DNA of 41,051 nt from a virus. A model generated the notes under the pieces. The model was not told the origin of the DNA. It did no database searches and saw only the letters and a program-made list of their open reading frames with translations. Of the stretch, positions 8,351 to 40,895 are shown piece by piece. Position numbers and translations under genes: made by a program. The stretch spans positions 1-41,051 of the IMG/VR virus record IMGVR_UViG_3300003872_000017. One strand, written 5' to 3'. How positions within the stretch are numbered: position 1 is the stretch's first letter; every line of letters begins with the position of its first letter.

Positions 8351-8523
8351 ATGACACTGGATTAATCAGATTAGCTAGTCTACAATCTCTTAGTACATTG
8401 AATGAAGCTATTAGTGAATTATGTACTAAGGTAACTATACTAGAAGATGAACGAGATGAATATAAGCGTAAATGGCTTGCAGCTACAAAATGCGTTAATG
8501 ATGTAAAACAAATTACATCATAA
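8347..8523 (+). CDS. Small coiled-coil protein, 58 aa
   Basis: An uninterrupted 58-codon frame that starts at the ATGA junction with the nuclease gene. The product begins MNDTGLIRLASLQSL and contains a predicted helical charged stretch (KVTILEDERDEYKRKW) typical of a short coiled coil. No family is recognised. The last four codons and the stop lie inside the 85-bp repeat that recurs at the right end of the window, so the gene tail was probably fixed when that element duplicated. Confidence 0.65.
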   Translation: MNDTGLIRLASLQSLSTLNEAISELCTKVTILEDERDEYKRKWLAATKCVNDVKQITS

Positions 8524-8606
8524 AACGCACATAAACACGCTTTAAACGCATTAAAAATCATTATGTATATAAATGTATGCGTAACAATTTTAACGCGTTT
8601 AAACGC
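8511..8606 (+). promoter_or_regulatory. Inverted-repeat control element, copy 1
   Basis: Bases 8511-8595 match 40793-40877 at 83 of 85 positions. The element holds TTTAAACGCATTAAAA (8541-8556) opposite TTTTAACGCGTTTAAA (8588-8603), a 16-bp inverted repeat with one mismatch, around the core TTATGTATATAAATGTATGC. The 12-bp palindrome GCGTTTAAACGC closes it (8595-8606). Within the core, TATAAA at 8568-8573 could be a -10 box, 52 bp before the helicase start. A 21-bp unit (8528-8548) recurs here, at the right end, and twice in the other orientation at 31865-31906. Confidence 0.75.
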
Positions 8607-8625
8607 AAATATAAAGGATTAACTT

Positions 8626-9882
8626 ATGATAGAACCTTATAAACATCAAATAGAAAAGGCAGAAGAATGTTGGAATATCTTAAAAGAAACTGGCTATGTT
8701 TATTTAGCTGGAAAGCCAAGGTCTGGCAAAACCCTTACAAGCTTGTTAATAGCAGAGACCTCAAACAAAATAAACAACATATTGGTACTAACAAAGAAGG
8801 CTGCAATACCTGGGTGGGAGAAGTTTCTTACAAATGTGAACCTAAAACATAACTATCTAATTACAAACTATGAACAAGTAGGTAAGTGGGACTCAAATAA
8901 GCGAAAAGCTATACTTAAACTAAACCCTAAAGATTATGATTTAGTTATTATAGATGAAAGTCATAATTTAGGTACTGTAGGTAAACCTAGCGGAAGGTAT
9001 AAAGCTATTAAATCTCTATGTTATGAACTACCTCATATACATCTTAGTGGTACAGCTATAGTTGAGAGTCCTAATAGTATATACCACCAAATGTCTGTTA
9101 GTAAATATAATCCTTTTATGTTTAAGAACTTTTATGACTTCTTTAGACGATATGGTAAACCATATTATATCAAGGCTGCAGGTAGAGAGATAGCTCAGTA
9201 TGATAGATTTAAACCTGAACTATTAGATGAGATTAATAAGTTTACTGTTTATATGACGCAAGAGGATGCTGGTATATCTAAAGATTGTATGGCAGAAGAT
9301 AAACTACACTATGTAGAACTTGAGAAGGAAACTAAAGAACTATATAACAGATTACAGAAGGATAATATATGTAGAGTATGGCAAGGTTATTTATCTAACT
9401 GCGATACTGACAAACCACTAGATTTGGTTTGCGATACAACTATGAAACTACGAACATCTTTACATATGTTGGAGAGCGGAGTAGCTAAGATAGATAATGA
9501 GTATATTGAACTAGGTAATACTGAGAAGATAGACTACATATATAATACATTTGGTGATACTAAAGATGTAGGAATAATGTGCCATTTTATTGGCGAAAGG
9601 AGATTACTTGAAAAGAAGTTTAAGAACGCTAGCATCTACTCTAGCAGCAGTCACGCAGAAGGTGTGGATTTATCTCACCTTGTACATTTTGTTATTCTTA
9701 GTTCCGACTATTCTGGCTCTAAGTTTATTCAGCGCCGTGACCGGGTGGTCAATATCAATGGTAGTAATACCACGATAGTTAATCATATACTTGTTAAGGG
9801 CGCTATATCAGAACAAGTATATAAGAAAGTAAGTAAAAAAGAAGACTTTAACAACTCTACTTATGAAGCTAATTCTATTTAG
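8626..9882 (+). CDS. SF2 (SNF2/DEAD-like) helicase
   Basis: 418 residues. Walker A is LAGKPRSGKT (K35), Walker B is LVIIDESHNLG (D110), and motif III-like HLSGTAIVESP follows. The C-terminal RecA-like lobe contains a QRRDRVVNIN segment that corresponds to the motif VI arginine region (QRxxRxxR). This resembles phage SNF2-type helicases that work in replication, recombination or transcription. It has its own upstream control element and ribosome binding site (AAAGGATTAACTT). The last 8 bp overlap the stop of the converging late operon, leaving no room for a terminator between them. Confidence 0.92.
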   Translation: MIEPYKHQIEKAEECWNILKETGYVYLAGKPRSGKTLTSLLIAETSNKINNILVLTKKAAIPGWEKFLTNVNLKHNYLITNYEQVGKWDSNKRKAILKLNPKDYDLVIIDESHNLGTVGKPSGRYKAIKSLCYELPHIHLSGTAIVESPNSIYHQMSVSKYNPFMFKNFYDFFRRYGKPYYIKAAGREIAQYDRFKPELLDEINKFTVYMTQEDAGISKDCMAEDKLHYVELEKETKELYNRLQKDNICRVWQGYLSNCDTDKPLDLVCDTTMKLRTSLHMLESGVAKIDNEYIELGNTEKIDYIYNTFGDTKDVGIMCHFIGERRLLEKKFKNASIYSSSSHAEGVDLSHLVHFVILSSDYSGSKFIQRRDRVVNINGSNTTIVNHILVKGAISEQVYKKVSKKEDFNNSTYEANSI

Positions 9883-12277
9883 TTTCTTTAAGTTTCAATT
9901 TATAAATCTTCTCAACCTCACTCTTAGGTAATTTAACTCCGTGGTCTATGTTTATGCGCTTAACCATTTTATCAACTTCAGACTTAATTATCTTATGTAC
10001 TGAGTCTAGATTTCCTTGTAACTCCTCACTCTTAATTCTTCCTAGTTGAGTATTAAATCGTCTACCATTTATATATGATTTAACTTTATTAATAACATCA
10101 TTACTGTAGCCTTTACCTAAAGTATCTCTAACTAAATTAGTTTGTGCATCGTGTAAAGCTACATATGAAGCATCATCACCTATAATTCCACTCTGTGTAG
10201 CATATTTAGGCTGTAGATTAACATCACCAGTAGATAAAGAGTCTGGCTTATGTTCTATTAGTTTCTGTTCTTCTTTAATTAGTAAATCGTTATAATCATT
10301 AGATATAATACCTTTTAAATGTGGATTAAGATTATCTATAATATTTTTAAAGTTGGCTACTTTAGTAGGTTCTCTAAGTATATCTTCTAAACCATCCATA
10401 ACTCTTAAATGTTTAGCTACACTACTATAAGGTATATGCTTTCTTATCATATTTGATAGTTTATCTATTATAACAACTGCAGCTTTACCTTCAGCTGTTG
10501 TAGCAATAGTTGCACCACTTCTTCCGTGCATAACATTTAGAGTACGCATACTATCATCTGTTTTAAATACTTCTTTCATATCATTAACTAATGAGTTTAA
10601 ATGTTGCCCTTCTGGTGTTACAAAACCTTTATTCTCTAAGTTTTTACTTATAGTCTCCCAAGCTTGATTACCGTTTTTACCTTGCAGAGTTCTATTTATT
10701 ATAGCCTTCTCTAACATAGCTGTATGTTTTTGCCCTACTAAATCTGATATATTACTAAATATATCATCACCAGCACCTATGGTTTTAAGCTTACGCATAA
10801 CTGCTTCTGGTGTTGATTTAGCCGAACCTTTATATGTAGTAGATACAGCCTTCTGAATTTCATCACCTAATTTACTAACTCTAACAGTAGCCATTTTAGC
10901 ATAGTTATCATTAGCAGCTTTCCACATAGCATACTCTTTAGTGCTAAGTGCATCTTTTAAATCAGAATTTATTTGGTCCTTTACAACACTCCACTTATGT
11001 ATAGATTGACCTTTCGCTCTAGCCTTAAGACTATTAACTATAGGTGAACTATCTAGTAAGTCTTTTACACTTACTTCATCTTTACCTAATAATTGTTTAA
11101 GTTCAGCTACATCACCAGTAGTAGCATCATCAACCACATCAAATAGCTTAGGTTCAAAAACTGAGTTAGTTGGTTTATCACTAATAGTAGCTTTAATATC
11201 ATTATACTCTTGCCCAACTCTCTTGAAATTAGTTTTTAAATCTTGTGCAAAATCTTCTACATTAAAGCTACTCTTTGAAGCTTCAATTAGATTTTGTTTA
11301 GTATCCTTAATTCTCTTGTTTAAGTTTTTAACAGCTATAGGGTCGTTAACCATAGAAGATTTAATGTCAGCACCTTGTGTACCTAAATTGTCAATTAGAG
11401 CTTTAATTCTATTCTTAGTTGTATCAGCCTCACCTGTTACTCTTCTCCATTGTTTAAACTCACTATCAGCTACCTTAGCATCTATATTGTAGTGGTCTAA
11501 CATATATCTATATATACCGTTAGCTTTTGAGCCTGGTAAGAATTCTAATGCTTTAGTTACACCACCAGTCAGTAAACCACCTATAATTCCATCTCTAGTA
11601 GCTTCACTATATGACTTATCTTCACCTACAGAACTAAGGAATGTTAACGCACCACCCGTTAATGTTGCAGACATAACTCCACTACCCATAGGTACTGCAC
11701 CATATGAAGCTAACTCACCATATGTAGCAGGATGCATAAATTGTTCTGGGTGTTTAGTATTATAGTTACCTATAAAACTATTAAGGGTTTTAACGGCTTT
11801 ATCTGTAGTAGCTTTTTCATTAGGTAAATCATAATGAGCTAATGTATCATTAATAACCTTAGCACCACCTGCTGTAAGTTCTCTAGCACCAGCTACAACT
11901 TGTTCAGTACCTTCTTTAATAGGAGTTGTTACATCTTTATTAAATGCACCTTGATAGTCTTCTGGTTGTCCTGTACTGATGGTACTAATTGTACCATCAG
12001 GATTTACTGTAGGTTTATTTGCATCACTATAATCAGTAACACCACTTAAATCTGCTTTAGGTTGATTTGTGCCACCGTTTAGATATGCGCCTACACCTAC
12101 ATCAGGTATATTTGTGTTAGTATTAGCACTATCATTAGTACTACTATTGCTGTTAGTATCTGTTCCATTATTTACCACCTTATAATCATTTGGGTTTAAA
12201 TCATTTATATTAAGCTGTTGGGTAGGAGCATTACTCACTACCTTATAATCATTTGGGTTTAAATCATTTATATTCAT
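9875..12277 (-). CDS. Large internal virion/ejection-like protein
   Basis: 800 residues at the end of the leftward operon. The N-terminus carries two copies of NINDLNPNDYKVV (residues 2-14 and 23-35), then a long Asn/Thr/Ser-rich linker. A Gly/Ala-rich hydrophobic stretch follows near residues 190-250 (GELASYGAVPMGSGVMSATL and GIIGGLLTGGVTKAL), then a long helical region. This layout, and the location just after the portal gene, resembles podovirus ejection proteins such as P22 gp16 or T7 gp15/16. No lytic transglycosylase motif was found. The stop overlaps the helicase stop on the other strand. Confidence 0.75.
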   Translation of the reverse strand: MNINDLNPNDYKVVSNAPTQQLNINDLNPNDYKVVNNGTDTNSNSSTNDSANTNTNIPDVGVGAYLNGGTNQPKADLSGVTDYSDANKPTVNPDGTISTISTGQPEDYQGAFNKDVTTPIKEGTEQVVAGARELTAGGAKVINDTLAHYDLPNEKATTDKAVKTLNSFIGNYNTKHPEQFMHPATYGELASYGAVPMGSGVMSATLTGGALTFLSSVGEDKSYSEATRDGIIGGLLTGGVTKALEFLPGSKANGIYRYMLDHYNIDAKVADSEFKQWRRVTGEADTTKNRIKALIDNLGTQGADIKSSMVNDPIAVKNLNKRIKDTKQNLIEASKSSFNVEDFAQDLKTNFKRVGQEYNDIKATISDKPTNSVFEPKLFDVVDDATTGDVAELKQLLGKDEVSVKDLLDSSPIVNSLKARAKGQSIHKWSVVKDQINSDLKDALSTKEYAMWKAANDNYAKMATVRVSKLGDEIQKAVSTTYKGSAKSTPEAVMRKLKTIGAGDDIFSNISDLVGQKHTAMLEKAIINRTLQGKNGNQAWETISKNLENKGFVTPEGQHLNSLVNDMKEVFKTDDSMRTLNVMHGRSGATIATTAEGKAAVVIIDKLSNMIRKHIPYSSVAKHLRVMDGLEDILREPTKVANFKNIIDNLNPHLKGIISNDYNDLLIKEEQKLIEHKPDSLSTGDVNLQPKYATQSGIIGDDASYVALHDAQTNLVRDTLGKGYSNDVINKVKSYINGRRFNTQLGRIKSEELQGNLDSVHKIIKSEVDKMVKRINIDHGVKLPKSEVEKIYKLKLKETK
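12178..12274 (-). repeat. 34-bp perfect direct repeat at a gene start
   Basis: Bases 12178-12211 and 12241-12274 are identical, with a period of 63 bp. Both are in frame at the start of the 800-aa protein and encode the duplicated NINDLNPNDYKV segment. Identity at DNA level suggests a recent duplication or active homogenisation rather than old divergence. Confidence 0.9.
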
Positions 12278-14103
12278 TATTGTCCTCCTTGTGAAGGTCT
12301 ATTAGGTAATTGGTTCATAGCTTGTCCTTGAGGTTGCTGTCCCTCTAATTGACCTTGTTGCATTGCTTGTTGCTGTTGAGGTTGTAACATCTGAGCAGTC
12401 TGTTCAAGTATTTGAGCCAACTCTGGACTATATTTAGACTTAGTATTTTTGAGACTTAAACTAGCTGCTTGGAAGTAACCTTGTGGATTAACTTGACTAA
12501 GCATATTACCTACAGGTCCATTCAGAAACTGCTCAAATAGTTGTCTGTTTTGGTCTGATGTATCATCAAAACTAACTGTATCTAAACCTATATCAGCTCT
12601 TGAGAAAGCTATATCTGTATCCATAGTTGGTATTGGAGCCATAATATGATTACCATAGTCATCAGTTAATGGTTTACCTGTTGCTGGGTCTTTAACCTCT
12701 TCAAATACGTGCCTAGTTTGAGGTTGTCCAGTTTGTTGGTCTACTTGACCTGTAGGTATCTCTAAAGGTTTATTTAACTCAATCCATTTATTACCTTCAT
12801 AGTTATTAGCTACTCTGATAACGTCGTGAGCTGTAAAGTATTGTTTAATTAGATTAACTATATCCCAGCCTAATAAACGATAGAAGTTCTCTATTTTACT
12901 TGTACTATATCTTTGCGCTACGACAGAAGCATTTTGCTGTAGTTTTACCTTAGCACCACTATCACTAGCGTAAGCCATACCTAAGAAACTATCATTAATA
13001 CTAAGAACTCTCTGAACTCTATCTAAACCTTTATCTATAATAGTATATTGGTCAAGCACTTCTCTAGTTAAATTCTCCACTCTGATACCAGCTAAATCTT
13101 TAACAGGTATAATAGCATTAACTCTGTTAAATTGATTAGTAAACTCCGCCAAGTCTTCTACTGAACCATCTTCTACAAAAGCTTTTTGTGTATTAGCCAT
13201 AAGTTGTATTTTAAGTAGTGCTTGATTTATAGCTTTTTGTGTTTCAATTACTTCCCTAAATAAACCATAAAACTCTGCTCTATTACTGTCATTAAGCTTC
13301 TGCACTCTATAAGGCATTTTAACATCTTTATATGTTATCTCTTTCTTGCTAAGTATAGTATCTTGACACCAGTGTATGGACCAAGTCTTATCACCATCTT
13401 TAACTATAGAGTGAACTATTAAATAGTTATCAAAGCGTTTATATCTACCCATAAATTGTGTATTATAAGTATATGTAAAATCTGCTTCTTTAATATAAAG
13501 ATAATTATAGTAAGCATCTATTTCTTCGCGTTTAGCTTTACCATATAGTCTATCTACATCTTCTTGAGCTACCCACTTAAATCTATGTATATACTTAGCG
13601 TCAGAATAGTCATCTAATCTACTCATAGGGTCTATAGCTATTTCTAAACTAGGTATATGGCTAATGTTAATCTTGTATAATGGACGCCCAAATTCATCTA
13701 TTTCACCAGTTGGTTCTACATCTACATAGCTACACATTAAACCAGTTAAGATATTATCTAGCTTAATTTTATCACCTTCTGCACTAAAGTTATTAGTTCG
13801 GAAGACATAATCAACTACATCTTGAATAACAGCTGCAGTAATTGTACTACTCTCTTTCTCAGGATTAACCTTAACATTATTAACTATAGTAGAATAATAG
13901 CCTACTAACATACGGGCAAATAATTTAATAATATTAAATGTCTCTGCGGGTTGTCCTCGTTTAGCTAATATATTTAGCTGTTCTACCGAATACTGTCTAT
14001 TATGATATAAGTCTAATACTTCAAGAGCCTCATTACGAGACTCCTCAAAGGAGTCATAGCTAATTTTAAATGTATCTCTTAAGTTTTCTACTGTTGGTTT
14101 CAT
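12277..14103 (-). CDS. Portal protein (P22-type)
   Basis: 608 residues, in the size range of podovirus portals. The N-terminus (ALEVLDLYHNRQYSVEQL then RGQPAETFNIIKLFARMLVG) and the following VNPEKESS region resemble P22-family portals. The middle is a mixed barrel/wing region and the C-terminus is a Gln-rich tail (QPQQQQAMQQGQ), as in several portals with C-terminal barrels. It forms the dodecameric DNA channel at the capsid vertex. It sits next to ejection genes, far from terL and capsid; in most phages portal follows terminase directly. Its ends overlap both neighbouring genes. Confidence 0.88.
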   Translation of the reverse strand: MKPTVENLRDTFKISYDSFEESRNEALEVLDLYHNRQYSVEQLNILAKRGQPAETFNIIKLFARMLVGYYSTIVNNVKVNPEKESSTITAAVIQDVVDYVFRTNNFSAEGDKIKLDNILTGLMCSYVDVEPTGEIDEFGRPLYKINISHIPSLEIAIDPMSRLDDYSDAKYIHRFKWVAQEDVDRLYGKAKREEIDAYYNYLYIKEADFTYTYNTQFMGRYKRFDNYLIVHSIVKDGDKTWSIHWCQDTILSKKEITYKDVKMPYRVQKLNDSNRAEFYGLFREVIETQKAINQALLKIQLMANTQKAFVEDGSVEDLAEFTNQFNRVNAIIPVKDLAGIRVENLTREVLDQYTIIDKGLDRVQRVLSINDSFLGMAYASDSGAKVKLQQNASVVAQRYSTSKIENFYRLLGWDIVNLIKQYFTAHDVIRVANNYEGNKWIELNKPLEIPTGQVDQQTGQPQTRHVFEEVKDPATGKPLTDDYGNHIMAPIPTMDTDIAFSRADIGLDTVSFDDTSDQNRQLFEQFLNGPVGNMLSQVNPQGYFQAASLSLKNTKSKYSPELAQILEQTAQMLQPQQQQAMQQGQLEGQQPQGQAMNQLPNRPSQGGQ

Positions 14104-15758: not shown

Positions 15759-15770
15759 TAATTCTCCTTA

Positions 15771-16966: not shown

Positions 16967-16980
16967 AGTTTATTATATCA

Positions 16981-30100: not shown

Positions 30101-30241
30101 GTTCTAGTATAATAGCTATATAACAGTACCTAGTATAATAGCTATATAATAGAAATTTAGAATTTTTAAAAATAAAATTAGAGGACCTAGTATAATAGCT
30201 ATATAATAGAAATTTAGAATTTTTAAAAATAAAATTAGAGG
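30101..30241 (+). repeat. 57-bp tandem repeat with promoter-like boxes
   Basis: Two exact 57-bp units start at 30128 and 30185, with the beginning of a third at 30242 and a partial, diverged copy at 30101-30127. Each copy carries TATAATAGCTATATAA (30108, 30134, 30191). A near-identical box, TATAATCGCTATATAAT, occurs at 31779 upstream of another gene, so this is likely a stacked promoter or a binding-site array. Confidence 0.85.
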
Positions 30242-30259
30242 ACCTATTCTAATTTTATT
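30228..30259. promoter_or_regulatory. Perfect 11-bp inverted repeat after the tandem repeat
   Basis: AATAAAATTAG (30228-30238) pairs exactly with CTAATTTTATT (30249-30259); the stem can grow by one pair. It closes the tandem array on its right side. Possible transcription barrier between the two divergent operons, or part of a packaging or replication signal. Confidence 0.65.
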
Positions 30260-30558: not shown

Positions 30559-30741
30559 ATGACAGATTTACAAAGAGAGATACTAATAGAGTTACTAAAT
30601 AACACTATTGAAGTTGGTGTAGTTGAAGTTAGTGAAGGTTACTATGAGTTGAATAACATACCTACAGAGAAAGATTTGGCTGTTGTTAAAGATGAATTAT
30701 GTAAACTTAGAGATAATTGTATATCTAAATTAGATAAATAA
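30559..30741 (+). CDS. Small early-type protein, 60 aa
   Basis: A 60-residue acidic protein (starts MTDLQREILIELLNNTIEVG) with a helix, a short beta segment and a second helix ending KLRDNCISKLDK. It is first in the rightward early block, after a promoter-like box and AGAAGGA. No family recognised. Position next to the divergent control region suggests an early takeover or regulatory peptide. Confidence 0.75.
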   Translation: MTDLQREILIELLNNTIEVGVVEVSEGYYELNNIPTEKDLAVVKDELCKLRDNCISKLDK

Positions 30742-31813: not shown

Positions 31814-31906
31814 ACGCGTTTAAAATTGTATTATGTATAAATGTATGCGATACAATTTTAAACGCGTTTAAAGCGTGTTTATGTGCGTTTAAAGCGTGTT
31901 TATGTG
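31814..31906 (+). promoter_or_regulatory. Inverted-repeat control element, copy with iterons
   Basis: A perfect 17-bp inverted repeat, ACGCGTTTAAAATTGTA (31814-31830) with its complement (31851-31867), surrounds the core TTATGTATAAATGTATGCGA. Directly downstream are two tandem 21-bp units (31865-31885 and 31886-31906) starting CGTTTAAAGCG and ending TTTATGTG. The same 21-bp unit occurs inverted at 8528-8548 and 40810-40830. TATAAA at 31836 is a possible -10 box. Confidence 0.8.
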
Positions 31907-31956
31907 TGTGTTATCATATGTGATAATATTTTTTTTAAAACTATAAAGGATATATA

Positions 31957-32274
31957 ATGGTAAATGTAGATAGAATGTTGAAAGAGCAGAGAACTAGGTT
32001 AACTAACATCAATAGTGAAGAGGTTACAAGTAAAGAAACTAAGAAACAATCTTATGCACTTGATATACCAGAAAATAATGTTTCACGCACTAATATGTTT
32101 GTGATAGACAATACTTTAACATTAACTAGGGTTATATGTTCTAATGTGTATCGCGTTGAATTTCCTTGTAAAACTATTGCGTGCGACATAGTGGATTGGT
32201 TCTCTTGTTATGACAATATTTTTGTACTCGGAGCGAGGAGAACTAATGTTAAAGCGGACCAATTTTATAACTAA
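31957..32274 (+). CDS. Hypothetical protein, 105 aa, upstream of the candidate origin
   Basis: 105 residues: a basic, helical N-terminal third (RMLKEQRTRLTNINSEEV, TSKETKKQS) and a beta-rich remainder with three Cys (RVICSNVYRVEFPCKTIACD). AAAGGATATATA is a good ribosome site. It is controlled by the inverted-repeat element and lies before a 347-bp AT-rich gap and the primase gene. An origin-binding or regulatory role is a position-based guess. Confidence 0.75.
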   Translation: MVNVDRMLKEQRTRLTNINSEEVTSKETKKQSYALDIPENNVSRTNMFVIDNTLTLTRVICSNVYRVEFPCKTIACDIVDWFSCYDNIFVLGARRTNVKADQFYN

Positions 32275-32621
32275 AAGGTGTTGAGGTTGGAAATTTTGTT
32301 TATTTTTTATTATTATGTTATTATATGTTAATATATAAATATAGTATATAAATAAGTATAAAAAAAACAAAATCTATAGTATAAAAAACAAAATCCGAGA
32401 TATATTAACATATGATATATTAACAGGTTCCCTTAAGCTCTTTCGAAGTGAGCTTTAAGTATACTAATATATTAACAAGTACATTCAGTATAATTTAAGA
32501 AATTAAATTATATTAATATATTACATTAACACAAAAGTTTAAGCGACTATTAAGCTTAAACTAATAAAACATTAAGATTTAAAATGATATAATTTTAAAC
32601 ATTCAACATAAAGGAGTTCCA
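32275..32621. other. AT-rich intergenic region, candidate replication origin
   Basis: No gene is seen in these 347 bp. It holds three ATATATTAACA sites (32400, 32415, 32467), two direct copies of AAAAAACAAAATC 21 bp apart (32362, 32383), a hairpin around CTTAAGCTC/GAGCTTTAAG (32432-32459), a perfect 9-bp hairpin AGTTTAAGC/GCTTAAACT (32536-32562), and a TGATATAAT box before the primase start. Placement immediately upstream of the primase-helicase supports an origin. Confidence 0.55.
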
Positions 32622-35147
32622 ATGATAATAAAGTACGCTACTTTACCTAAACCTTTAGTTAGAGCGAGCCAAATATATTCTCCCGAACAGTTAAAGCAAC
32701 ACGAACACAGACCAACAGACAAACTTTTATCTGATGGGTCGAGAGATAAACGACTAGAACAACAGTGGGTGAACAACCCAGAATCCCTCCTAGTAACCAC
32801 TAGCTTTGAAGACCTTATTAAAATAAACAACAAAGCAGTAGGAATAGTACACGGGTTATGTAACCCACCTTTAGTAACCATAGACATAGATTGCCAACAT
32901 AAAGCGGACATTTTAATGCCTATAGTAAATAACCTACCAACATCTCAACAACCCTTAGTTATATCGAAGGGAGTAGGTAAAGCAGGATACCATCTACTTT
33001 ATCACAACACCCAAGAGAACAAACTTCTCTTAGATTACATACTAGCTGTAAATAAAGGGGGATTAGGTGACCAATTAGATGTATTACAGTCTAGTAGTAA
33101 AATATTATTCTTTGGTAATGAAGGTAATAAAACTAAAGAACATATCGCTATAAACCCTCTTGTAGTTAATGGTAACCCTAACAACATAGTAATACCTATA
33201 CCGATACAGTTACAGCTAGCGGTTATGGCACTCTTTAAAGATATAAGACCTCAACACTTAAACATAGCGAAAGAGAGCGGGACATTTCTACCAGAACATT
33301 CATTACAAGTGTCTGATTTGGGTTACCTATTCAAGGACTTTAACCCACAGAACGCAGACACGGAGATAACCTTAGCTACATTTATAGCAAAGAGGGCTAA
33401 GGTAGACCTTAAGGAACAGTTCCAGAACCAGTCTGAGGAGGAGGCATACCCTTACAAACCAAAATATTATACTGGAACACCTAATGACCTTCTCCATAGG
33501 CTATCTGGCTCGTTAAAGAATGATGTAGGTGTATCGCAGGAACAGCATAAAACAGTAATAGAGACGATAAACCAACAACTACATCACAAGAAGAACTTAG
33601 ATGATTTACAGAAGGAGATATTAATGCCTGATACTAGGAACACAACAGAGCATCCTTACACATATAACAAGGATTGGGAGGAGAATACAGCGTCAATATT
33701 TAGTAATCACAAACAGTTACTAAATATATATAGGGTTAGTAGGTCTAGTTCACAAGAACCCCATATGATACATAACACGGAGACGGGTTCAGTTAGTTTA
33801 TTTAGAACACCTACAGAGTTAGTTGAGGAGCTACAAGGTGAGGTAGCCCTACCAGCTAAAAAACTAAGGTCTATACAGTCTAGGGCACAGTTAGTGGACC
33901 TCATAGATAGACCAGATGAACCATTTGGTTTGATACAACCTAAGAAGGACTCTGTAAATAGACGACCTTCGTTTAATGTATATAGGAGAACATTAATACA
34001 AGATTTTTTCTATACTCCAGAAGAAGCACAGCTCATTACCAAGCATATATACAAGAGACCAGCAACAATAATAGCTGCGATAGAGAGTCAGATGGGTGTG
34101 GATAAAACACACGAGCTATTTTTACCTTTTCTCAGGCATAAACTACTAACGCACGAGCCTTCTGCCTTAGTATTTGTTTTAGTTGGTGTTCCATATTCCT
34201 TTAAAACAGGTTTGATGGAGGGTGTTATTAAACCTCTATTCTCAACGCAAAGATATAATAAGGTTGGTGGAGAGGTACTAACGGAGAAGTTTAACGACTG
34301 GTTAGTTAATCTAGACATTCTATACATAGATGAGTTTCACCATCTTACTGGAACACCTCAATTAAAACCTGCTATACAAGCTCTAAACAAACTAGGGTCT
34401 GAATATCACGAAGGTATAAGAAGTATGCACAAGAGTGTTCAGAAAGGTAAAGATATTAAGCAGGAGGCTACAGTATTTTTAGCTATGAATAATCAGCACT
34501 TAGTTGTTCCAGCTACAGAGACAACTGGTGAGAGAAGATTAGTTGTTGGGTACTCTAGACAACCACTATCAGTAGCGCTTAAAATGGCTGACCCAGACAT
34601 AAAAGCGTTGATAAAGAGTGAGATAAACGACTTCGCTATATACCTTAGGAAGGAGGTTGGAGAAATAGACCCTCAAGACTACGCACATAATAGACGGTGG
34701 AAGGATATAGATAACCACTACTTTAGTTTTATGGATGAAGGTATTAGTAAGCTTAAGAGGTTGGCTCAGGCGTTAGGTTTAACTAATGATGCACCAAATT
34801 TCGAGCAGTTACAGAAGTTAGCTGACCCGATACCACTAAAGAATTTTGTATTTAAACTACAGAGAACTTCTCACGGGTCACCATACAGGTTACGCTTGTG
34901 GAATGCCCAAGGAAGTTACTCAAATCAGATAACACAGGAGGGATTAATTGACCACATAGAATCTATAGATTATAATGATGTAGCTAAGGCACTATCTAAC
35001 AACGATAAAGCACTTAAACCTAGTATGGTTTCATCTAACATAAGGCAGATGAAGCAGGACTTTATACTTAGTGAAGCTGAGGTATTAGTTAATAACTTGT
35101 ATCAAGAACCTGAGGAAGTTATGAAATTAGATGGAGGTACAAGGTAA
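32622..35147 (+). CDS. AEP primase-polymerase / SF3-like helicase
   Basis: 841 residues with two parts. The N-terminal archaeo-eukaryotic primase domain shows the metal pair in TIDIDCQHK (D88, D90), GYHLLYH (H124) and DQLDVL (D153). The C-terminal part is a phage/plasmid-type helicase with Walker A VGVPYSFKTG (K528), Walker B LYIDEFHH (D570, E571) and TGERRLVVGYSRQPL as a sensor or arginine-finger region. This domain order resembles the NrS-1 phage primase-polymerase. With a family A polymerase also encoded, priming and unwinding are its likely main jobs. Ribosome site AAAGGAG; stop overlaps the next start. Confidence 0.88.
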   Translation: MIIKYATLPKPLVRASQIYSPEQLKQHEHRPTDKLLSDGSRDKRLEQQWVNNPESLLVTTSFEDLIKINNKAVGIVHGLCNPPLVTIDIDCQHKADILMPIVNNLPTSQQPLVISKGVGKAGYHLLYHNTQENKLLLDYILAVNKGGLGDQLDVLQSSSKILFFGNEGNKTKEHIAINPLVVNGNPNNIVIPIPIQLQLAVMALFKDIRPQHLNIAKESGTFLPEHSLQVSDLGYLFKDFNPQNADTEITLATFIAKRAKVDLKEQFQNQSEEEAYPYKPKYYTGTPNDLLHRLSGSLKNDVGVSQEQHKTVIETINQQLHHKKNLDDLQKEILMPDTRNTTEHPYTYNKDWEENTASIFSNHKQLLNIYRVSRSSSQEPHMIHNTETGSVSLFRTPTELVEELQGEVALPAKKLRSIQSRAQLVDLIDRPDEPFGLIQPKKDSVNRRPSFNVYRRTLIQDFFYTPEEAQLITKHIYKRPATIIAAIESQMGVDKTHELFLPFLRHKLLTHEPSALVFVLVGVPYSFKTGLMEGVIKPLFSTQRYNKVGGEVLTEKFNDWLVNLDILYIDEFHHLTGTPQLKPAIQALNKLGSEYHEGIRSMHKSVQKGKDIKQEATVFLAMNNQHLVVPATETTGERRLVVGYSRQPLSVALKMADPDIKALIKSEINDFAIYLRKEVGEIDPQDYAHNRRWKDIDNHYFSFMDEGISKLKRLAQALGLTNDAPNFEQLQKLADPIPLKNFVFKLQRTSHGSPYRLRLWNAQGSYSNQITQEGLIDHIESIDYNDVAKALSNNDKALKPSMVSSNIRQMKQDFILSEAEVLVNNLYQEPEEVMKLDGGTR

Positions 35148-35317
35148 TGGCTATGCCTAGTAAAAGTCTCATTAAAAATAGTTTGCTTACAGATATAATA
35201 GATAGCTATAAATTAGGTGTACCTTTAGCTGCACTACATAGACAATACATACAACAAGGTGAGGACTTTAAAATAAGTCTTCCAGTATTTATGAAACTAA
35301 TTAAAAAGGAAATATAA
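35147..35317 (+). CDS. Tiny coupled protein, 56 aa, possible HTH
   Basis: A 56-codon frame starting at the TAATG overlap with the primase stop; GGAGGTACAAGG lies upstream. The segment LTDIIDSYKLGVPLAALHRQ has helix-turn-helix spacing, seen in small recombinase or regulator-like proteins. The final residues KLIKKEI and the following junction are repeated at the end of the next gene. No firm family. Confidence 0.65.
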   Translation: MAMPSKSLIKNSLLTDIIDSYKLGVPLAALHRQYIQQGEDFKISLPVFMKLIKKEI

Positions 35318-35487
35318 TGATTAAACTAACAGATAAAACAGGTGATATATACATAAACCCAGCACATATAGTATATCTATACAGAAGTTCACGGATTAAT
35401 ACAACCATAACAATGGTTGATGATACGCCAATCTATGTGAAAGAAACAGTGGAAAGCATACTTAAACTAATTAAAGAGGAAATATAA
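35317..35487 (+). CDS. FlbD-like small protein, 56 aa
   Basis: A 56-residue protein with the FlbD pattern: MIKLTDKTGDIYINPAHIVY, a TTITMVDDTPIYVKE strand pair and a final helix. FlbD is a short protein found beside flagellar genes in Campylobacterota, Firmicutes and others. A phage copy could modulate host motility genes or may be a general small beta-protein. It begins at a TAATG overlap and is the same length (171 bp) as the gene before it. Confidence 0.7.
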   Translation: MIKLTDKTGDIYINPAHIVYLYRSSRINTTITMVDDTPIYVKETVESILKLIKEEI

Positions 35488-35630
35488 TGATAATATTAAA
35501 CACAAAGACAATGTTACAATCAGCAGTTAATCTTAATGATTATTCAACACACCAACTACAAGAGATTTATGATTTTTATACCCAGCATAAAACATTTGTA
35601 GTTGTTATAGATGGAGAAATACAATGTTAG
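35487..35630 (+). CDS. Tiny coupled protein, 47 aa
   Basis: A 47-codon frame that starts at the TAATG overlap behind AGAGGAAAT. The product starts MIILNTKTMLQSAVNL and ends VVVIDGEIQC. It resembles a small beta-alpha peptide, no family recognised. It ends overlapping the 127-aa gene by 7 bp. Confidence 0.6.
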   Translation: MIILNTKTMLQSAVNLNDYSTHQLQEIYDFYTQHKTFVVVIDGEIQC

Positions 35631-36007
35631 TAAATAATACTATAGACCAACTTATAATTAGTTTAGAGAATATAAAAGCACTAAATGCACCAGAAGATAC
35701 TAAGCAGATACATTTGAATTTTGCCTTAGACTTAACTAAAAATATCCGTAGTAAACCAGAACAACCTAAGCATAATATAAATAGGCATCAATTAGTGGAA
35801 CTAACATTCTCAACACTAACAGATAATAATGATGACAACCTGAATGAACTATTAGCTTATGATTTTGATATGCCTACTGGCTCTTATTTATTAGTTGGTG
35901 GACGCAGTGAGGTTATTACATCTAACAGAGATATAACAAACTATAGCGTACCTTATCAAAGTGCAGACAAAATTAAAGTAATACGAGATTATGGAGGAGA
36001 TGAATAA
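35624..36007 (+). CDS. Hypothetical protein, 127 aa
   Basis: 127 residues: a helical N-terminal half (NTIDQLIISLENIKALNAP) and a C-terminal half with strands and a glycine pair (GSYLLVGGRSEVITSN). TGGAGAAATACA precedes the start. No motif recognised. It belongs to the chain of small coupled genes between primase and ligase. Confidence 0.75.
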   Translation: MLVNNTIDQLIISLENIKALNAPEDTKQIHLNFALDLTKNIRSKPEQPKHNINRHQLVELTFSTLTDNNDDNLNELLAYDFDMPTGSYLLVGGRSEVITSNRDITNYSVPYQSADKIKVIRDYGGDE

Positions 36008-36186
36008 TGATATTAAAATACAAAGCAGGTGAGGAAATTACAATGGTTGAGGTATCTAAGTTTACATACTTAGAAGATTATAGTATGTTGATGTACGAAC
36101 CTAAAGGTGGTTTAGGTACAATAAGAATAGATAACTGTAATAAAGCTAGCATTAAAATATATTCAGATACAGGAGTAGCATTATGA
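36007..36186 (+). CDS. Tiny coupled protein, 59 aa
   Basis: A 59-codon frame at a TAATG overlap with GGAGATGA upstream. The protein starts MILKYKAGEEITMVEVSKFT and looks like a small all-beta fold ending ASIKIYSDTGVAL. It ends in an ATGA-type overlap with the DNA ligase gene. Unknown function. Confidence 0.65.
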   Translation: MILKYKAGEEITMVEVSKFTYLEDYSMLMYEPKGGLGTIRIDNCNKASIKIYSDTGVAL

Positions 36187-37043
36187 GTAAGATACAAAAA
36201 AGCTTAGACTATAACAAACTTAAAGAGCAACAAGAAAAAGGTAAGCTACTAAAGAAACAACTAAAGTTTCCACTAATAGCTCAAATCAAATTTGATGGCG
36301 CGTACACTGTGATAGAAGTAGATAAAGACTACAAAGTAACATACCATACTTCTGGTGGTTTACAATACACTCTACCAGAAACACCTGAATATATAGATAG
36401 TCTTAAGCCAGGCTTCTATATAGCTGAGAGGATAATGAATGGTGGTAAATTAGGTACTAGACGCTTCACTGCATTAACCGGCCCAAAAACAAACCAGCAC
36501 GCTAATATTAATAGTCAGTTTAGAATACACGACTACTTAACTATAGATGAATATAATAGTGGTAAAGCTAGACTGTCTTGTGTTAGACGCTACCAACACT
36601 TAGCTACTATACCAGCAATAATTAGAGTAGATAACTTTATAATGCACAACTTAACTGATATTGAGGCATTTCTTGATATAGCAGTAAGACAAGGCTATGA
36701 AGGTATAATGCTTAAAGACCCTGAATGGTTGTGGAAAGATACTAAGTCTCGTAATATAGAGTGTGCTAAGTATAAGAAGAGACCAACGGCAGACTTACTA
36801 TGTATAGATACGGAGCGTGGTGAAGGTAAGTATGAAGGTATGATAGGTAGTTTAGTTCTACAAGACTCTCAAGGAAGGATAGTTAAGGTAGGTTCAGGAT
36901 TAAGTGATAGACATAGAGAAGCTAACCCACGAGACTTTATAGACAAGGTTATAGAGATTGAGTATGAGCAGATTATAGATACCTATATTCAACCAACATT
37001 TATACAACTTAGAACAGACAAAACAAAAGAGGATATAGATTAA
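36183..37043 (+). CDS. ATP-dependent DNA ligase
   Basis: 286 residues, the compact phage type. Motif I is QIKFDGAY with the adenylated Lys36. Later motifs are FYIAERIM (III-like Glu), YEGIMLKDP (IV) and CAKYKKRPTADLL (V). An OB domain follows (GSLVLQDSQGRIVKVGSG). It joins Okazaki fragments and recombination intermediates. It overlaps the genes on both sides by a few bases and completes the replication set with polymerase, primase, helicases and 5' exonuclease. Confidence 0.94.
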   Translation: MSKIQKSLDYNKLKEQQEKGKLLKKQLKFPLIAQIKFDGAYTVIEVDKDYKVTYHTSGGLQYTLPETPEYIDSLKPGFYIAERIMNGGKLGTRRFTALTGPKTNQHANINSQFRIHDYLTIDEYNSGKARLSCVRRYQHLATIPAIIRVDNFIMHNLTDIEAFLDIAVRQGYEGIMLKDPEWLWKDTKSRNIECAKYKKRPTADLLCIDTERGEGKYEGMIGSLVLQDSQGRIVKVGSGLSDRHREANPRDFIDKVIEIEYEQIIDTYIQPTFIQLRTDKTKEDID

Positions 37044-37288
37044 TGGATTTCTATTTTACAATTAAGAATAGACTACACCTAAACGCTGTAATATCTATGC
37101 TATACCAGTTTAATGCTGCGGGTAATGAAGACTGGGAAAATATTCACTTAAGTGAAGACCCGATAATAATAACATTCGATAAGGCTGCCTATGAGATTTC
37201 TTATAACTACAAATCTAACCTTGATATAGGCTATATAGAGACCACAACTGATTTATTATTAAAAATATTACTAAGGAGACTAGACTAA
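37043..37288 (+). CDS. Hypothetical protein, 81 aa
   Basis: 81 residues starting at the TAATG overlap with ligase. A small alpha-beta protein (MDFYFTIKNRLHLNAVISML at the start; IIITFDKAAYEISYNY in the middle) ending in a hydrophobic helix LLLKILLRRL. No family recognised. The next gene starts at its final base. Confidence 0.7.
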   Translation: MDFYFTIKNRLHLNAVISMLYQFNAAGNEDWENIHLSEDPIIITFDKAAYEISYNYKSNLDIGYIETTTDLLLKILLRRLD

Positions 37289-37902
37289 TGAAAGTAACAT
37301 TGGAAGATTACAACAACAGAACGGAAGAGATGATAGCTACGAGTGCCGCAATATGCTACAACTCAAAACCTAAAAACTTAGGTATAATTAGCAAGATGAA
37401 GGAACATAAGCACCTAGCTACATTTAGGTTTGCTTACGCAGTAATAAAGATAGAGGATGTATCTACTATTACAGCAGTACAGACACTAAGAACCAGCTTT
37501 GCAGATATGCTAGACTCAGATAGCCATCTATGGGAGTCCCAACGCTATGTTAATCAGAGTGAGAGGGAATTTGTAGTACCTGAATGTAGTTATCTTGATG
37601 ATAAAGTTAGTTTGGAGGCTAGAACAGCCTTTAAGACTGTTAATAACTTAACTAAGAATGTGTATAACAACCTATTAGAAATGGGTGTTAAAAAGGAAGA
37701 CGCTAGATATATACTTACTAGAGCTGTAACAACAGATTTATATATAGCTGGTAATATGCAGATGTGGACACAGTTCTTACAACTTAGGACTGATAAACAC
37801 GCACAGTGGGAAGTTAGAGCAATGGCTAATGAGATTGCATTAGTTCTTAGTGAGAAATTTCCTAGAATTATGGAAGAGTTTATAGGAGTTAATAACGGCT
37901 AA
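37288..37902 (+). CDS. ThyX-like (flavin-dependent thymidylate synthase) protein, variant motif
   Basis: 204 residues. The C-terminal part (NMQMWTQFLQLRTDKHAQWE then VRAMANEIA) and the ESQRYVN segment fit ThyX, which makes dTMP from dUMP using FAD. The family signature RHRxxSxxxxSxRY is altered: QTLRTSFADMLDSDSHLWES shows LRT in place of RHR and several extra residues before SQRY. Activity may therefore differ or be lost. AAGGAG precedes the start. The ORF is a little shorter than cellular ThyX. Confidence 0.82.
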   Translation: MKVTLEDYNNRTEEMIATSAAICYNSKPKNLGIISKMKEHKHLATFRFAYAVIKIEDVSTITAVQTLRTSFADMLDSDSHLWESQRYVNQSEREFVVPECSYLDDKVSLEARTAFKTVNNLTKNVYNNLLEMGVKKEDARYILTRAVTTDLYIAGNMQMWTQFLQLRTDKHAQWEVRAMANEIALVLSEKFPRIMEEFIGVNNG

Positions 37903-37921
37903 GTTTGGTAAAGGCGATAGA

Positions 37922-38239
37922 GTGTATAGTAAATCATATGAAGAAAAAGGTATAGTTACAGGTATAAATTTGTATTTAGATGACGAAGATGAATATCCTG
38001 TTAATGTAGAGTTTGATGGTGGGCAGTATGCTACTTTTACTTTAGACGGTAGACTTAGTAGTGAGTATAGAGCTATAGATTTAGCGTCTCTTGAATATGA
38101 TAAGCTCCTAGATGAAGTTAATAGTCAATTACTAGATGAATATAGAGAGCTTAAAACTAGGTTCTATAACATAGCTATTGAATACGGTTTTACACCTAGT
38201 GATATTAATTTTAGTAGTGAGATGGAGGAATTATGCTAA
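37922..38239 (+). CDS. KOW/SH3-like small protein, start uncertain
   Basis: 105 residues from GTG 37922. In-frame codons upstream (KFGKGDR) continue the typical start of an SH3/KOW-like barrel (GDRVYSKSYEEKGIVTG), and AGGAG at 37884-37888 fits a start near 37892, where only ATA or ACG codons exist. The real start may thus be a rare codon inside the thyX-like 3' end. The rest is a beta-barrel then a C-terminal helix. Function unknown. Confidence 0.72.
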   Translation: MYSKSYEEKGIVTGINLYLDDEDEYPVNVEFDGGQYATFTLDGRLSSEYRAIDLASLEYDKLLDEVNSQLLDEYRELKTRFYNIAIEYGFTPSDINFSSEMEELC

Positions 38240-38502
38240 ACAATAAAAAGATTGACTGGACACAAACGCTTAACTCACTTGTTCATACCCATAAGTATAA
38301 TGATGTGGTATTTAAGATAACTGATGTGGAAGACTTAGCCCACTATATAGCCGAGCTAAATGAAACTATAGGTTATTTAACAAGAAGAGCTGAAAACTTA
38401 GATTTATTAGCAAATAATAGATGGATAGAACTTAAAAAGCTTAAGGAAGAACAAACAACAGTGGACCAATTAGCTGGTTATAAAGTATATAAAGGAGCTT
38501 AG
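38233..38502 (+). CDS. Hypothetical helical protein, 89 aa
   Basis: 89 residues, mainly helical with a coiled-coil-like middle (AHYIAELNETIGYLTRRAEN, LDLLANNRWIELKKLKEE). ATGGAGGAATT upstream gives a strong ribosome site. It overlaps the previous gene by 7 bp. No known motif. Confidence 0.72.
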   Translation: MLNNKKIDWTQTLNSLVHTHKYNDVVFKITDVEDLAHYIAELNETIGYLTRRAENLDLLANNRWIELKKLKEEQTTVDQLAGYKVYKGA

Positions 38503-38583
38503 ATGAATACTGCTATACAAATATTATTACTACTTACGGCTATAGCTTTCTTAACGCTTCCATATTTAGTATGGAGGCTTTAG
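38503..38583 (+). CDS. Single-span membrane peptide, 26 aa
   Basis: A 26-codon frame directly after AAAGGAGCTTAG, one of the best ribosome sites in the region. The product (MNTAIQILLLLTAIAFLTLP then YLVWRL) is nearly all one membrane span. Such peptides in phages can affect host membranes or superinfection. The next gene begins inside its 3' end. Confidence 0.6.
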   Translation: MNTAIQILLLLTAIAFLTLPYLVWRL

Positions 38584-39026
38584 TAGATAGAGCTAGTAAT
38601 GCACAGAATTGGGTTAGTGTTGTGGAGTTTTGTAGTGAGTATGATATTGATGATAATTCGTTTAGGGTATTACTAAGTAAGGACAAGAAGCGAACATTTG
38701 GTAAGTATGTTAAACAACTAAATAGTAAAAACTATATAAACTTAAAACCACTTATAGCGCGGCAAGAGTTTAGGAAGACTATTTGGCTAGTTAATCACGA
38801 TAACTATTTTGCTATAACAGAGCATATTAGTGACTATAATCTAGCTTTAATACTAGCTAGATACACAGGTAAAACAAGAGCTAATTGGACGCAATTTTTA
38901 TCATTTAGACTTTTCTCTTTAGCACTAACTGAGAAAAGTTTGCTTGATTACAAAGTGCCAGACAATATGTGGGAGTTCTATAGAGTAACCACATTCTTAA
39001 TCAGAAGGATAAATAGATTATGGTAG
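38571..39026 (+). CDS. Hypothetical protein, 151 aa
   Basis: 151 residues, mostly helical and basic. A region near 10-50 (NWVSVVEFCSEYDIDDNSFR) has the look of a winged-helix or HTH-like start, and the C-terminus is aromatic and basic (MWEFYRVTTFLIRRINRLW). It overlaps genes on both sides. No family recognised. Confidence 0.7.
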   Translation: MEALVDRASNAQNWVSVVEFCSEYDIDDNSFRVLLSKDKKRTFGKYVKQLNSKNYINLKPLIARQEFRKTIWLVNHDNYFAITEHISDYNLALILARYTGKTRANWTQFLSFRLFSLALTEKSLLDYKVPDNMWEFYRVTTFLIRRINRLW

Positions 39027-39199
39027 TAGAGATAAAAAACATTAAGTATAAAACAGATTTAGTATGGATATTTTTCTTACTAATATTAACATTCACTAGT
39101 GATAGTAGCTTAAAAACTAGCGTAGGTATAGTAATAATAGTTATTTTCGTAGTTACTAGAGAGATTAAAATACATATAGATAATTCAAGGGATAAATAG
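39020..39199 (+). CDS. Small two-span membrane protein, 59 aa
   Basis: A 59-codon frame with AGAAGGATAAATAGATT upstream. The product has two hydrophobic segments, DLVWIFFLLILTF and SVGIVIIVIFVV, joined by a short polar loop. It has the size of a holin or superinfection-exclusion protein but lies among replication-side genes, not in the lysis cassette. Confidence 0.65.
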   Translation: MVVEIKNIKYKTDLVWIFFLLILTFTSDSSLKTSVGIVIIVIFVVTREIKIHIDNSRDK

Positions 39200-39202
39200 A
39201 TT

Positions 39203-39610
39203 ATGGACAGAAAATTAATAGTAGCTTTAATATTTACAGACATAATATATAAGCTAGACGATACTATAAAGCGCAGAGACTATGTTCAAGTAGAACTAAG
39301 AAAGGTGCATAAGAAGAATATATTAGTTGGTCGTTCTAAGTCTAAAGAGTTAGTAGATGCCTTTAAGGTAGCTAATAAAGCTTGGATTTCTGCACAAGAG
39401 AAGTATCTAGGTAATGGACTAGAGTATTCTGTGCCTTTAACTATACAATTCTTTATAGCTAAAGAGCCTTGGCTTGTTAAGTATTTCGGTTTGAACCTAA
39501 AACATTTTGATAGACTATACAATAGCTATGACCTATCAAAACATATATTCAGGTCGGCTAAGATAACTAATACAATTCTTGAAGAGGTTGATGATGCCAT
39601 TAGAGATTAA
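39203..39610 (+). CDS. Hypothetical protein, 135 aa
   Basis: 135 residues, largely helical and basic (RRDYVQVELRKVHKKNILVG, KSKELVDAFKVANKAW). It starts 3 bp after the small membrane gene and overlaps the helicase gene by about 20 bp. Nothing in it is recognised; the coupling to the helicase suggests a related role. Confidence 0.7.
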   Translation: MDRKLIVALIFTDIIYKLDDTIKRRDYVQVELRKVHKKNILVGRSKSKELVDAFKVANKAWISAQEKYLGNGLEYSVPLTIQFFIAKEPWLVKYFGLNLKHFDRLYNSYDLSKHIFRSAKITNTILEEVDDAIRD

Positions 39611-40790
39611 ATACACAACAGGCTTTGCTGGAACGGGAAAGAGTTATAGCTTAATACAGAAAGTTAAATATCTACCGATTAAAACAAGTGTTGTCTTAGC
39701 ACCTACTCATAAAGCACTTCATAGACTTAGGAGTGAACTACCTTTAGGTATAGAGATTAAAACTACACATTCTTTACTAGGATGGATACCTACTATAAAC
39801 GAGAGTGCTAAGAAAACTGAACATATAGATACTACTATGAAGCTAGATAAGCAACTAGATGAATATAACCATATAGTTATTGATGAAGCTGGAATGCTTA
39901 GTGAGGAGATGTTCTTTGAGATAGTATCTAAGGTTGAGGATTATGCTGGGCTAGATGGTGAGGAAGGTAAAGATGTTGAGATACATTGTTTCTTAGACCC
40001 TTACCAACTTTTGCCGGTTAAAGGGCAGCAATTACAAACAGACCCTTTAACCACTACAAACCTAACTACTCAACATAGAGCTGAGAGTCTAGACATAGTT
40101 AATCTATATACTAAGTTTGTAGACTATTTAATAGGTACTAATAAGTCTGATTTAAGCACACCTTATTCAGATAATGTATTACCTTTAGACATTAGTAAGT
40201 TTAAACTAGGTGATAGACTATTAGCTTATACAAATAAAGCTGTAGGAGAATGGAATATAACTATAGCTAAACAACTAGGTATAGATAGTTATGAAGAGCA
40301 GGAGGTTCAATTAGGTAGTATGTTAGATTTAGTTATGTGTGAAGAGTTTATAGCACCTACAACAAAGGACCTACTAGACTGGTTTGAGAGTGGTAAGCTT
40401 AAAATACAGAATTCTCAAATTAGTAAGAAGTTTCTAGAATACTCACTAAATGAGCTTATAGTTAATAAAGATATTAAGTTCATAACAGACTATACTTATG
40501 TATATCCGGTTATACTTGGCATAGGTAATGCTAATATAGTTCATATGAAAGCTAAAGAGGCTGCAGTTAAGAATAGAAGTAAGTTTAAAACTGTATATGC
40601 TTTAGGTAGAGCTTATATTATGGACTATCCTTTCGCTACAACTGTGCATAAGAGTCAAGGTAGTGAATTTAATAGTGTGTTCATAGATAAAGAAGATATG
40701 CAGAAGTCTATATTTAACGGTAGTTATAGTACATACGCTAGGTTAATGTATGTTAGTTTGAGTAGAGCTATTAAACAGATTTACATATAA
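39591..40790 (+). CDS. SF1B helicase (Dda/RecD-like)
   Basis: 399 residues from ATG 39591, chosen because GAAGAGG is 3-9 bp upstream; the frame is open from TTG 39579. Motif I is GFAGTGKS, Ia LAPTHKAL, Ib THSLLGW, II VIDEAGML, III FLDPYQLLPV, IV-like LTTQHRA, V ATTVHKSQGSEF and VI YVSLSRA. This is the RecD/Dda pattern of a 5'-3' helicase used in replication start or recombination. It is the last gene before the right-end control region. Confidence 0.93.
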   Translation: MMPLEIKYTTGFAGTGKSYSLIQKVKYLPIKTSVVLAPTHKALHRLRSELPLGIEIKTTHSLLGWIPTINESAKKTEHIDTTMKLDKQLDEYNHIVIDEAGMLSEEMFFEIVSKVEDYAGLDGEEGKDVEIHCFLDPYQLLPVKGQQLQTDPLTTTNLTTQHRAESLDIVNLYTKFVDYLIGTNKSDLSTPYSDNVLPLDISKFKLGDRLLAYTNKAVGEWNITIAKQLGIDSYEEQEVQLGSMLDLVMCEEFIAPTTKDLLDWFESGKLKIQNSQISKKFLEYSLNELIVNKDIKFITDYTYVYPVILGIGNANIVHMKAKEAAVKNRSKFKTVYALGRAYIMDYPFATTVHKSQGSEFNSVFIDKEDMQKSIFNGSYSTYARLMYVSLSRAIKQIYI

Positions 40791-40792
40791 AC

Positions 40793-40895
40793 AATTACAT
40801 CATAAAACGCACATAAACACGCTTTAAACGCGTTAAAAATCATTATGTATATAAATGTATGCGTAACGATTTTAACGCTATATAGCGTGTTTATG
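40793..40895 (+). promoter_or_regulatory. Inverted-repeat control element, right-end copy
   Basis: Bases 40793-40877 match 8511-8595 at 83 of 85 positions. Here the outer arms are CATAAACACGCT (40812-40823) with AGCGTGTTTATG (40884-40895), and the inner arms CGTTAAAAATC/GATTTTAACG, around the same TTATGTATATAAATGTATGC core. No gene follows on this map; if the ends join, the first gene downstream is the one at 148. Confidence 0.78.

Follow-up and report, generated by a model that had tools for sequence, protein, structure and literature searches.

The phage genome analysed here carries three copies of one lineage-specific DNA palindrome. It is very probably a real signal, since two related phages keep one copy at the same spot, beside replication genes. 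Whether it serves replication start or gene control is not settled; a role in replication is the reading that we tentatively favour as the most likely. The window, meaning the whole stretch of DNA that was analysed, is IMG/VR virus record IMGVR_UViG_3300003872_000017 (41,051 bases), and its elements are composed as follows.

Element 1, 8511-8603, plus strand: inverted unit, left arm, core, right arm; between a 58-aa ORF and a helicase gene
21-bp unit of element 1, 8529-8549, minus strand: exact copy
Core of element 1 (TATAAATGTATGCG), 8568-8581, plus strand
Element 2, 31814-31905: palindrome plus tandem units
Palindrome of element 2, 31814-31867, plus strand: perfect 18-bp arms, 18-nt loop containing the core
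Core of element 2, 31836-31849, plus strand
Two tandem 21-bp units of element 2, 31864-31905 (31864-31884 and 31885-31905), plus strand
Element 3, 40793-40900, plus strand: inverted unit, left arm, core, right arm, partial unit on the right side
21-bp unit of element 3, 40811-40831, minus strand
Core of element 3, 40850-40863, plus strand
Partial unit TAGCGTGTTTATGT, right side of element 3, 40883-40896

The core, TATAAATGTATGCG, occurs exactly three times in the window (8568, 31836 and 40850), always on the plus strand, and the next-best matches have three mismatches. A compound pattern of the core followed by ACRATTTTAA, which takes in the right arm, likewise has three occurrences, with 0.00 expected from shuffles. 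The 21-bp unit, GCGTTTAAAGCGTGTTTATGT, is present in four exact copies, every one of them inside an element (0.01 expected). A sequence-only reading of this DNA had proposed three elements sharing a core and inverted repeats, with 21-bp units inverted at 8528 and 40810 and in tandem at 31865. Our analysis bears this out, with coordinates off by one at most: there are three exact cores, and in each element the pairing of the arms beats 300 of 300 shuffles. Elements 1 and 3 are identical at 84 of 86 positions (8511-8596 and 40793-40878), and element 2 has diverged further. In element 2, the inverted repeat (ACGCGTTTAAAATTGTAT, an 18-nt loop, ATACAATTTTAAACGCGT) is the best in the window among those with a loop of 10-30 nt; it scores 20.5, and no score above 15.0 arose in 20 shuffled genomes. 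When followed outward from the centre, all units face the same way, whether on the left (element 1), twice on the right (element 2), or on the left and partly on the right (element 3). Hence, the element is a dyad of ~60-110 bp, with the centre its sole asymmetric part.

The 11-mer TATAAATGTAT of that centre is unchanged across the window elements and those of two related phages, G023 (L204, IMGVR_UViG_3300035661_001517) and G025 (L209, IMGVR_UViG_3300003872_000087), in which it lies in the middle of an inverted repeat at the site of element 3. The window and its relatives together comprise 750,714 bases, in which the 11-mer occurs nine times; five of these occurrences are the elements. Arm pairing scored 15.0, 20.5 and 25.0 for elements 1, 2 and 3, 16.0 for the G023 element and 9.5 for the G025 element. 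With shuffled flanks, the first four scores were reached in none of 300 shuffles and the last in 5 of 300. As a control, the 11-mer was scored at 125 further occurrences, almost all of them in unrelated contigs; the maximum was 11.0, which four of the five elements exceed.

The arms differ between copies yet still pair, as had been noticed from the sequence. In an ungapped alignment of elements 1, 2 and 3 with the G023 element, both sides have changed in six of nine pairs, and covariation is 0.593, compared with at most 0.111 for slid partners; none of 500 shuffles reached 0.593. A search of related phages for co-varying arms, put forward as a check in the sequence-only reading, was positive in G023 and G025. 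The G023 element reads AATACAA[AAGGTATAAATGTATTGA]TTGTATT and element 2 reads ATTGTAT[TATGTATAAATGTATGCG]ATACAAT: the loop is 18 nt in both, with the core equally placed within it, whereas the arms differ yet pair. Elements 1 and 3 also have the 18-nt loop in their sequence. The arms in G025 (GGTTTTAAAATATTG and CAACCTTTTAAACC) have two mismatched positions and a bulge; nonetheless, a covariance model built from elements 1, 2 and 3 and the G023 element recovered the left-out G025 element as the best untrained match in 806 kb (E 0.044). Together, the kept position in relatives, the unchanged 11-mer, the covariation and the recovery of G025 suggest that the palindrome is probably constrained, with arms that are free in sequence but pairing and a centre that is fixed. 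Template-switch mutation can perfect palindromes without selection. Since the covariation rests on four or five sequences, from which the structure itself was derived, and since template switching could have acted, we regard the evidence for a pairing constraint as good, not final.

The relatives were 25 contigs, many of ~40-43 kb, gathered by means of the helicase adjoining element 1 (8626-9882); 13 were read whole and 8 shorter ones in full. The element was found in only 2 of the ~25, namely G023 and G025, the two that share the module of the 168-aa gene and polymerase. A block of the 168-aa gene, the polymerase, QueD/E/C, FolE and an HTH gene is common to these two and the window. Each has one copy, at the element 3 site in the gap that separates the 168-aa gene from the dda-like helicase gene, and in each the element lies upstream of the promoter of the 168-aa gene, as in the window. 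The G023 core is inverted, lying on the other strand. The element 2 site falls outside the G023 and G025 contigs, and their single copy is counted without that site; none of the 25 relatives has an element ahead of the second helicase gene, the element 1 site. The element 3 site is the sole position demonstrated as common with relatives.

Searching the 25 relatives by blastn, or for the core with up to two mismatches, gave chance-level matches only, and the phage collection held no DNA similar to the element. In IMG/VR, the bare 14-mer was found in at least 119 stretches, all of them without a palindrome of this kind, and a 20-mer of the unit had no match. Peptide patterns of the PrimPol and of the 168-aa protein yielded no relatives, the polymerase alignment contained only G023, G025 and one distant locus, and the helicase search of genome contigs returned one contig, L216, that ends short of the element 3 site. 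The PrimPol of G009 is 56% identical to that of the window, and G009 has no element. Hence, the element tracks the 168-aa/polymerase module, not the PrimPol.

The genes and promoter-like boxes around the elements are listed here.

168-aa gene, 127-633, plus strand: opens the polymerase block that lies downstream of element 3
104-aa XRE-like HTH protein, 7789-8103, plus strand: candidate DNA-binding protein
58-aa ORF, 8347-8523: left of element 1
Helicase gene, 8626-9882, plus strand: downstream of element 1; phrog_62, DNA helicase
105-aa gene, 31957-32274, plus strand: downstream of element 2; no homologue found
PrimPol/SF3-helicase-type replication protein, 32622-35147, plus strand: candidate user of the element
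dda-like helicase gene, 39579-40790, plus strand: upstream of element 3; syntenic in G023 and G025
TATAAT-type -10 boxes ahead of the 168-aa gene, 40935-40951, plus strand: downstream of element 3; consensus only

All three elements are intergenic and, as the sequence-only reading had it, each lies ahead of rightward genes (starting at 8626, 31957 and, across the joined ends, 127) and none ahead of any leftward gene in the window. No element lies directly ahead of the rightward unit that starts at 30559 or of the primase gene at 32622. The final codons of the 58-aa ORF come from element 1, and element 3 is immediately 3ʹ of the dda-like helicase gene. Homologues of the 168-aa gene were confined to G023 and G025, the relatives that bear the element. 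The 168-aa protein has no PHROG or Pfam match, and its assignment as an SSB was dropped for want of a family match; the 105-aa and 187-aa proteins had no family match either.

What is the functional significance of these elements? One possible, if doubtful, answer is that they are operator or promoter cassettes, such that a phage or host DNA-binding protein, e.g. the 104-aa XRE-like protein, would bind the dyad and set expression of the rightward replication blocks. The location of all three copies, in gaps ahead of rightward genes, is consistent with this. Furthermore, outside its core element 1 lacks a TATAAT box; the only similar hexamer is TATAAA, found in the core as well as at the ribosome-binding site. 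The TATAAA of the core may itself be a -10 box there. The outer arms hold a CG-centred palindrome, TTTAAACGCGTTTAAA (6 found with up to 3 mismatches, 0.39 expected), which the 104-aa protein could bind. This protein, described earlier as HTH-like, is a plausible XRE-type HTH with a fold predicted at moderate confidence, and its gene is present in all three element-bearing phages; more distant, weaker homologues occur in phages that lack the core. It is the whole linked block, not the HTH gene alone, that is present in every element-bearing phage.

The arrangement of promoter-like sequences argues against operators of this kind. The 168-aa gene has its TATAAT-type promoter, a consensus match, ~85-120 bp beyond the core in G023, G025 and the window alike; in each of these phages it is well outside the element. 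Just upstream of element 2 are three TATAAT hexamers in 11-bp steps (31779, 31790 and 31801), and on its downstream side is a TATAAT-like TGTGATAAT. Hence, the boxes are placed differently at each element, and there is no common spacing to them. Campylobacter σ70 promoters have a periodic A/T pattern and a TGxTATAAT extended -10 (PMC3656092); the element here has only TATAAA in its conserved core, which lacks the TGx, and the TATAAT boxes lie outside it in varying places. Directly after dda, most other family members have a promoter-like stretch in which TATAAT-type boxes are preceded by an AT-rich, periodic part. Since such stretches match the Campylobacter σ70 consensus, the hosts are probably Campylobacterota. 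The inversion of the core in G023 and the divergence of the inner arms among copies in one genome, which a sequence-specific dimer would not easily tolerate, also speak against an operator. The sequence-only reading had suggested that the elements define one regulon. They do form a single family; the constant orientation and spacing to promoters expected of the operator of one regulon were not found, judging by consensus matches for the promoters. With the core inverted in G023, no fixed spacing to σ70-like -10 boxes, and element 1 both without a separate promoter-like box and absent from all 25 relatives, a transcription regulon is not supported.

A rather unlikely alternative is that the palindrome is a cassette that moves or duplicates, marking the borders of modules and serving mainly in recombination, similar to the promoter early stem-loops (PeSLs) of T4-type phages, which have been described as mediators of gene shuffling (PMC4503421). 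Elements 1 and 3 are near-identical direct repeats of 86 bp that flank the block 127-8523, where the genes distinguishing the window lineage are found, elements 2 and 3 bracket the PrimPol-dda block (31957-40790), and element 1 is confined to the window phage, all of which suits such a cassette. However, G023 and G025 have the same block with one copy found in each (the element 2 site being outside their contigs), and the kept position and arm covariation point to a function in cis.

The elements could also be read as RNA, that is, as hairpins in untranslated or intercistronic mRNA that would control processing, stability or translation. This we consider unlikely. It is favoured by the strong predicted folding of element 3 (z of -6.2 and -5.5 on the two strands), by the intercistronic position of element 1, and by four relatives with a different hairpin, with compensatory changes in the stem, from just upstream to a few hundred bases before the helicase gene; element 2 may be transcribed from the TATAAT boxes just upstream of it. 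Nonetheless, predicted folds are strong with no consistent strand preference, which suits a DNA element and weakens a strand-specific RNA reading. Likewise, the core strand is reversed in G023, the element is ahead of the promoter at element 3 and in G025, the G025 element comes after a terminator-like hairpin, and no Rfam match was found. Searches for known RNA families (Rfam) and for tRNAs found none. Two other candidates were dropped: intrinsic terminators, the large palindromes having no following T-run, and promoters for a phage-type single-subunit RNA polymerase, no such polymerase being recognised among the listed ORFs.

We tentatively prefer a replication-associated stem-loop, which explains the data slightly better than, and is nearly equal to, an operator. 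We propose that a fixed 11-nt centre, TATAAATGTAT, sits within arms that pair and are free in sequence, the outward-facing 21-bp units being optional. The ancestral copy would be the one flanked by the dda-like helicase gene and the 168-aa/polymerase block, later copied to the second helicase gene (elements 1 and 3 being recent copies of each other) and upstream of the PrimPol block (element 2). At the stem-loop, with the DNA extruded or single-stranded, the AEP-primase/SF3-helicase protein or its partners would load or would initiate priming, in the way suggested for the origin of the plasmid pRN1. The kept loop, the free but pairing arms, the free orientation and the neighbouring replication genes fit this picture.

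The replication protein is found across the phage family. D88, D90, H124 and D153, as well as K528, E571, N623 and R638, are invariant or nearly so among 14 homologues; we take the first set to be the AEP primase pattern and the second the SF3 helicase pattern. A model of moderate confidence has its best match in the C-terminal region of the phage NrS-1 polymerase (E 3e-11). Thus, residue patterns indicate both AEP and SF3 in the replicon, and the fold match supports the SF3 part. On the other side, the element follows the 168-aa/polymerase module and not the PrimPol, as G009 illustrates; a stem-loop 3ʹ of the primase gene is not general in the family, being strong in G003 only and smaller in G020, and 3ʹ of the window's PrimPol gene the inverted repeats are within the shuffled range; and three copies exceed the need of one origin. 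The covariation, taken from four or five sequences, could partly reflect template-switch mutation. There is also a competing, independent origin candidate, an iteron-like array of four ATATATTAACA upstream of the primase (32326-32477), with a similar array in G009. GC skew follows gene direction only and located no origin. In its most specific form, the preferred reading makes the elements a class of signal read as a folded stem-loop and not as duplex sequence, with an invariant TATAAATGTAT loop and free pairing arms, independent of orientation and multiplied so that replication or priming starts beside each early block; we consider this form unlikely.

Little is known about the origins and priming sites that PrimPol/SF3 phages use. 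Here, one genome offers three short, well delimited sites, and two natural variants exist, one with an inverted core and different arms; hence, whether such proteins read structure or sequence is directly testable. If the elements are operators instead, they link three replication blocks in an uncultured phage lineage that probably infects Campylobacterota.

Several known systems resemble the elements in part. PeSLs of T4-type phages and the TATA-plus-inverted-repeat motif of HGTV-1 (PMC4503421, PMC3950731) are also dispersed intergenic inverted repeats with an AT-rich core near virus genes, but they occur in many dispersed copies and the elements here in three, with a core of varying orientation and, inside the element, TATAAA in place of TGxTATAAT. 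The intergenic repeats of halovirus HF2 have AT-rich motifs, a position kept among relatives and tested promoter activity (PMC8707807); the elements here share the first two features, but are known from sequence and vary in the position of the -10 box. The polymerase of NrS-1 starts DNA synthesis at the 8-nt 5ʹ-TTTGGTTA-3ʹ, present in two genome copies and a possible origin (PMC7102993, PMC8718748). NrS-1 is a phage of Epsilonproteobacteria, with a fold-related PrimPol/SF3 protein and a short recognition sequence; TTTGGTTA is absent from the window, and the consulted passages on NrS-1 describe no palindrome (PMC7102993, PMC8718748).

The Sulfolobus plasmid pRN1 has an essential stem-loop of ~100 bp that starts 54 bp 3ʹ of the replication gene, is conserved among relatives in structure and not in sequence, and functions when moved; a similar stem-loop has been reported for phage BIP-1 (PMC4234260). 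The elements here differ in that they have a conserved 11-nt loop motif, three copies and a putative role in replication, and in that the element follows a dda-like helicase and is not family-wide among phages; element 3 is ~5.6 kb after the PrimPol gene, 3ʹ of dda, and not immediately 3ʹ of the PrimPol/SF3 gene as in pRN1. The likeness is that the replicon encodes an AEP primase and an SF3 helicase and that a stem-loop of ~100 bp, close behind the 3ʹ end of a replication gene, keeps its structure without its sequence: as in pRN1, pairing is preserved here while the sequence of the stem changes.

Both ends of the window (40975-41051 and 1-30) consist of a (TTAAC)n microsatellite. With the ends joined, this array lies within the leader of the 168-aa gene, after promoter-like boxes and before the gene itself. 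It is absent from both G025 (L209) and G023 (L204), the two relatives that share the 168-aa gene and polymerase block. Failure to assemble through the array is the probable reason why the contig ends at this point.

The same leader has two successive hairpins in the window and in both relatives:

window 70-110, paired hairpins
L209 17820-17920 (-), paired hairpins
L204 19484-19590 (-), paired hairpins

The first hairpin is near-identical between G025 and G023 (CTGnTGGGCAGGTAACCCACAG); that of the window is unlike this version, and its loops repeat TAAGTAGC. An Rfam search with the leader hairpins gave no match. A possible function is translational control.

A further hairpin, GTGAG...TATCATCTGGTATGATA...CTCAC/GCCAC, is distinct from the inverted-repeat element studied here and is found 5ʹ of the helicase gene in four related phage contigs:

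G002 17748
G003 21908
G008 32264
G009 15056

It lies close to the gene in G002 and G009 and several hundred bases away in G003 and G008, and its stem shows compensatory changes.

The polymerase block includes the following genes, named by sequence recognition only:

window 4835-7783, QueD, QueE, QueC and FolE-like genes

Their presence suggests that the DNA carries 7-deazaguanine modification.

Tandem 57-bp repeats packed with TATAAT boxes (window 30128-30253) occupy a divergent region, with terminase genes on one side and early rightward genes on the other.

The AT-rich gap 5ʹ of the PrimPol gene (window 32326-32520) contains four exact copies of a ATATATTAACA iteron and is a candidate replication origin; G009 has a similar array upstream of its PrimPol gene. 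In G003 (L189), a stem-loop with 22-bp arms (37448-37518) begins 52 nt beyond the stop codon of the PrimPol gene, on its 3ʹ side, and follows a smaller hairpin. A stem-loop 3ʹ of PrimPol is the arrangement of the Sulfolobus plasmid pRN1, whose stem-loop origin lies just 3ʹ of its replication gene.
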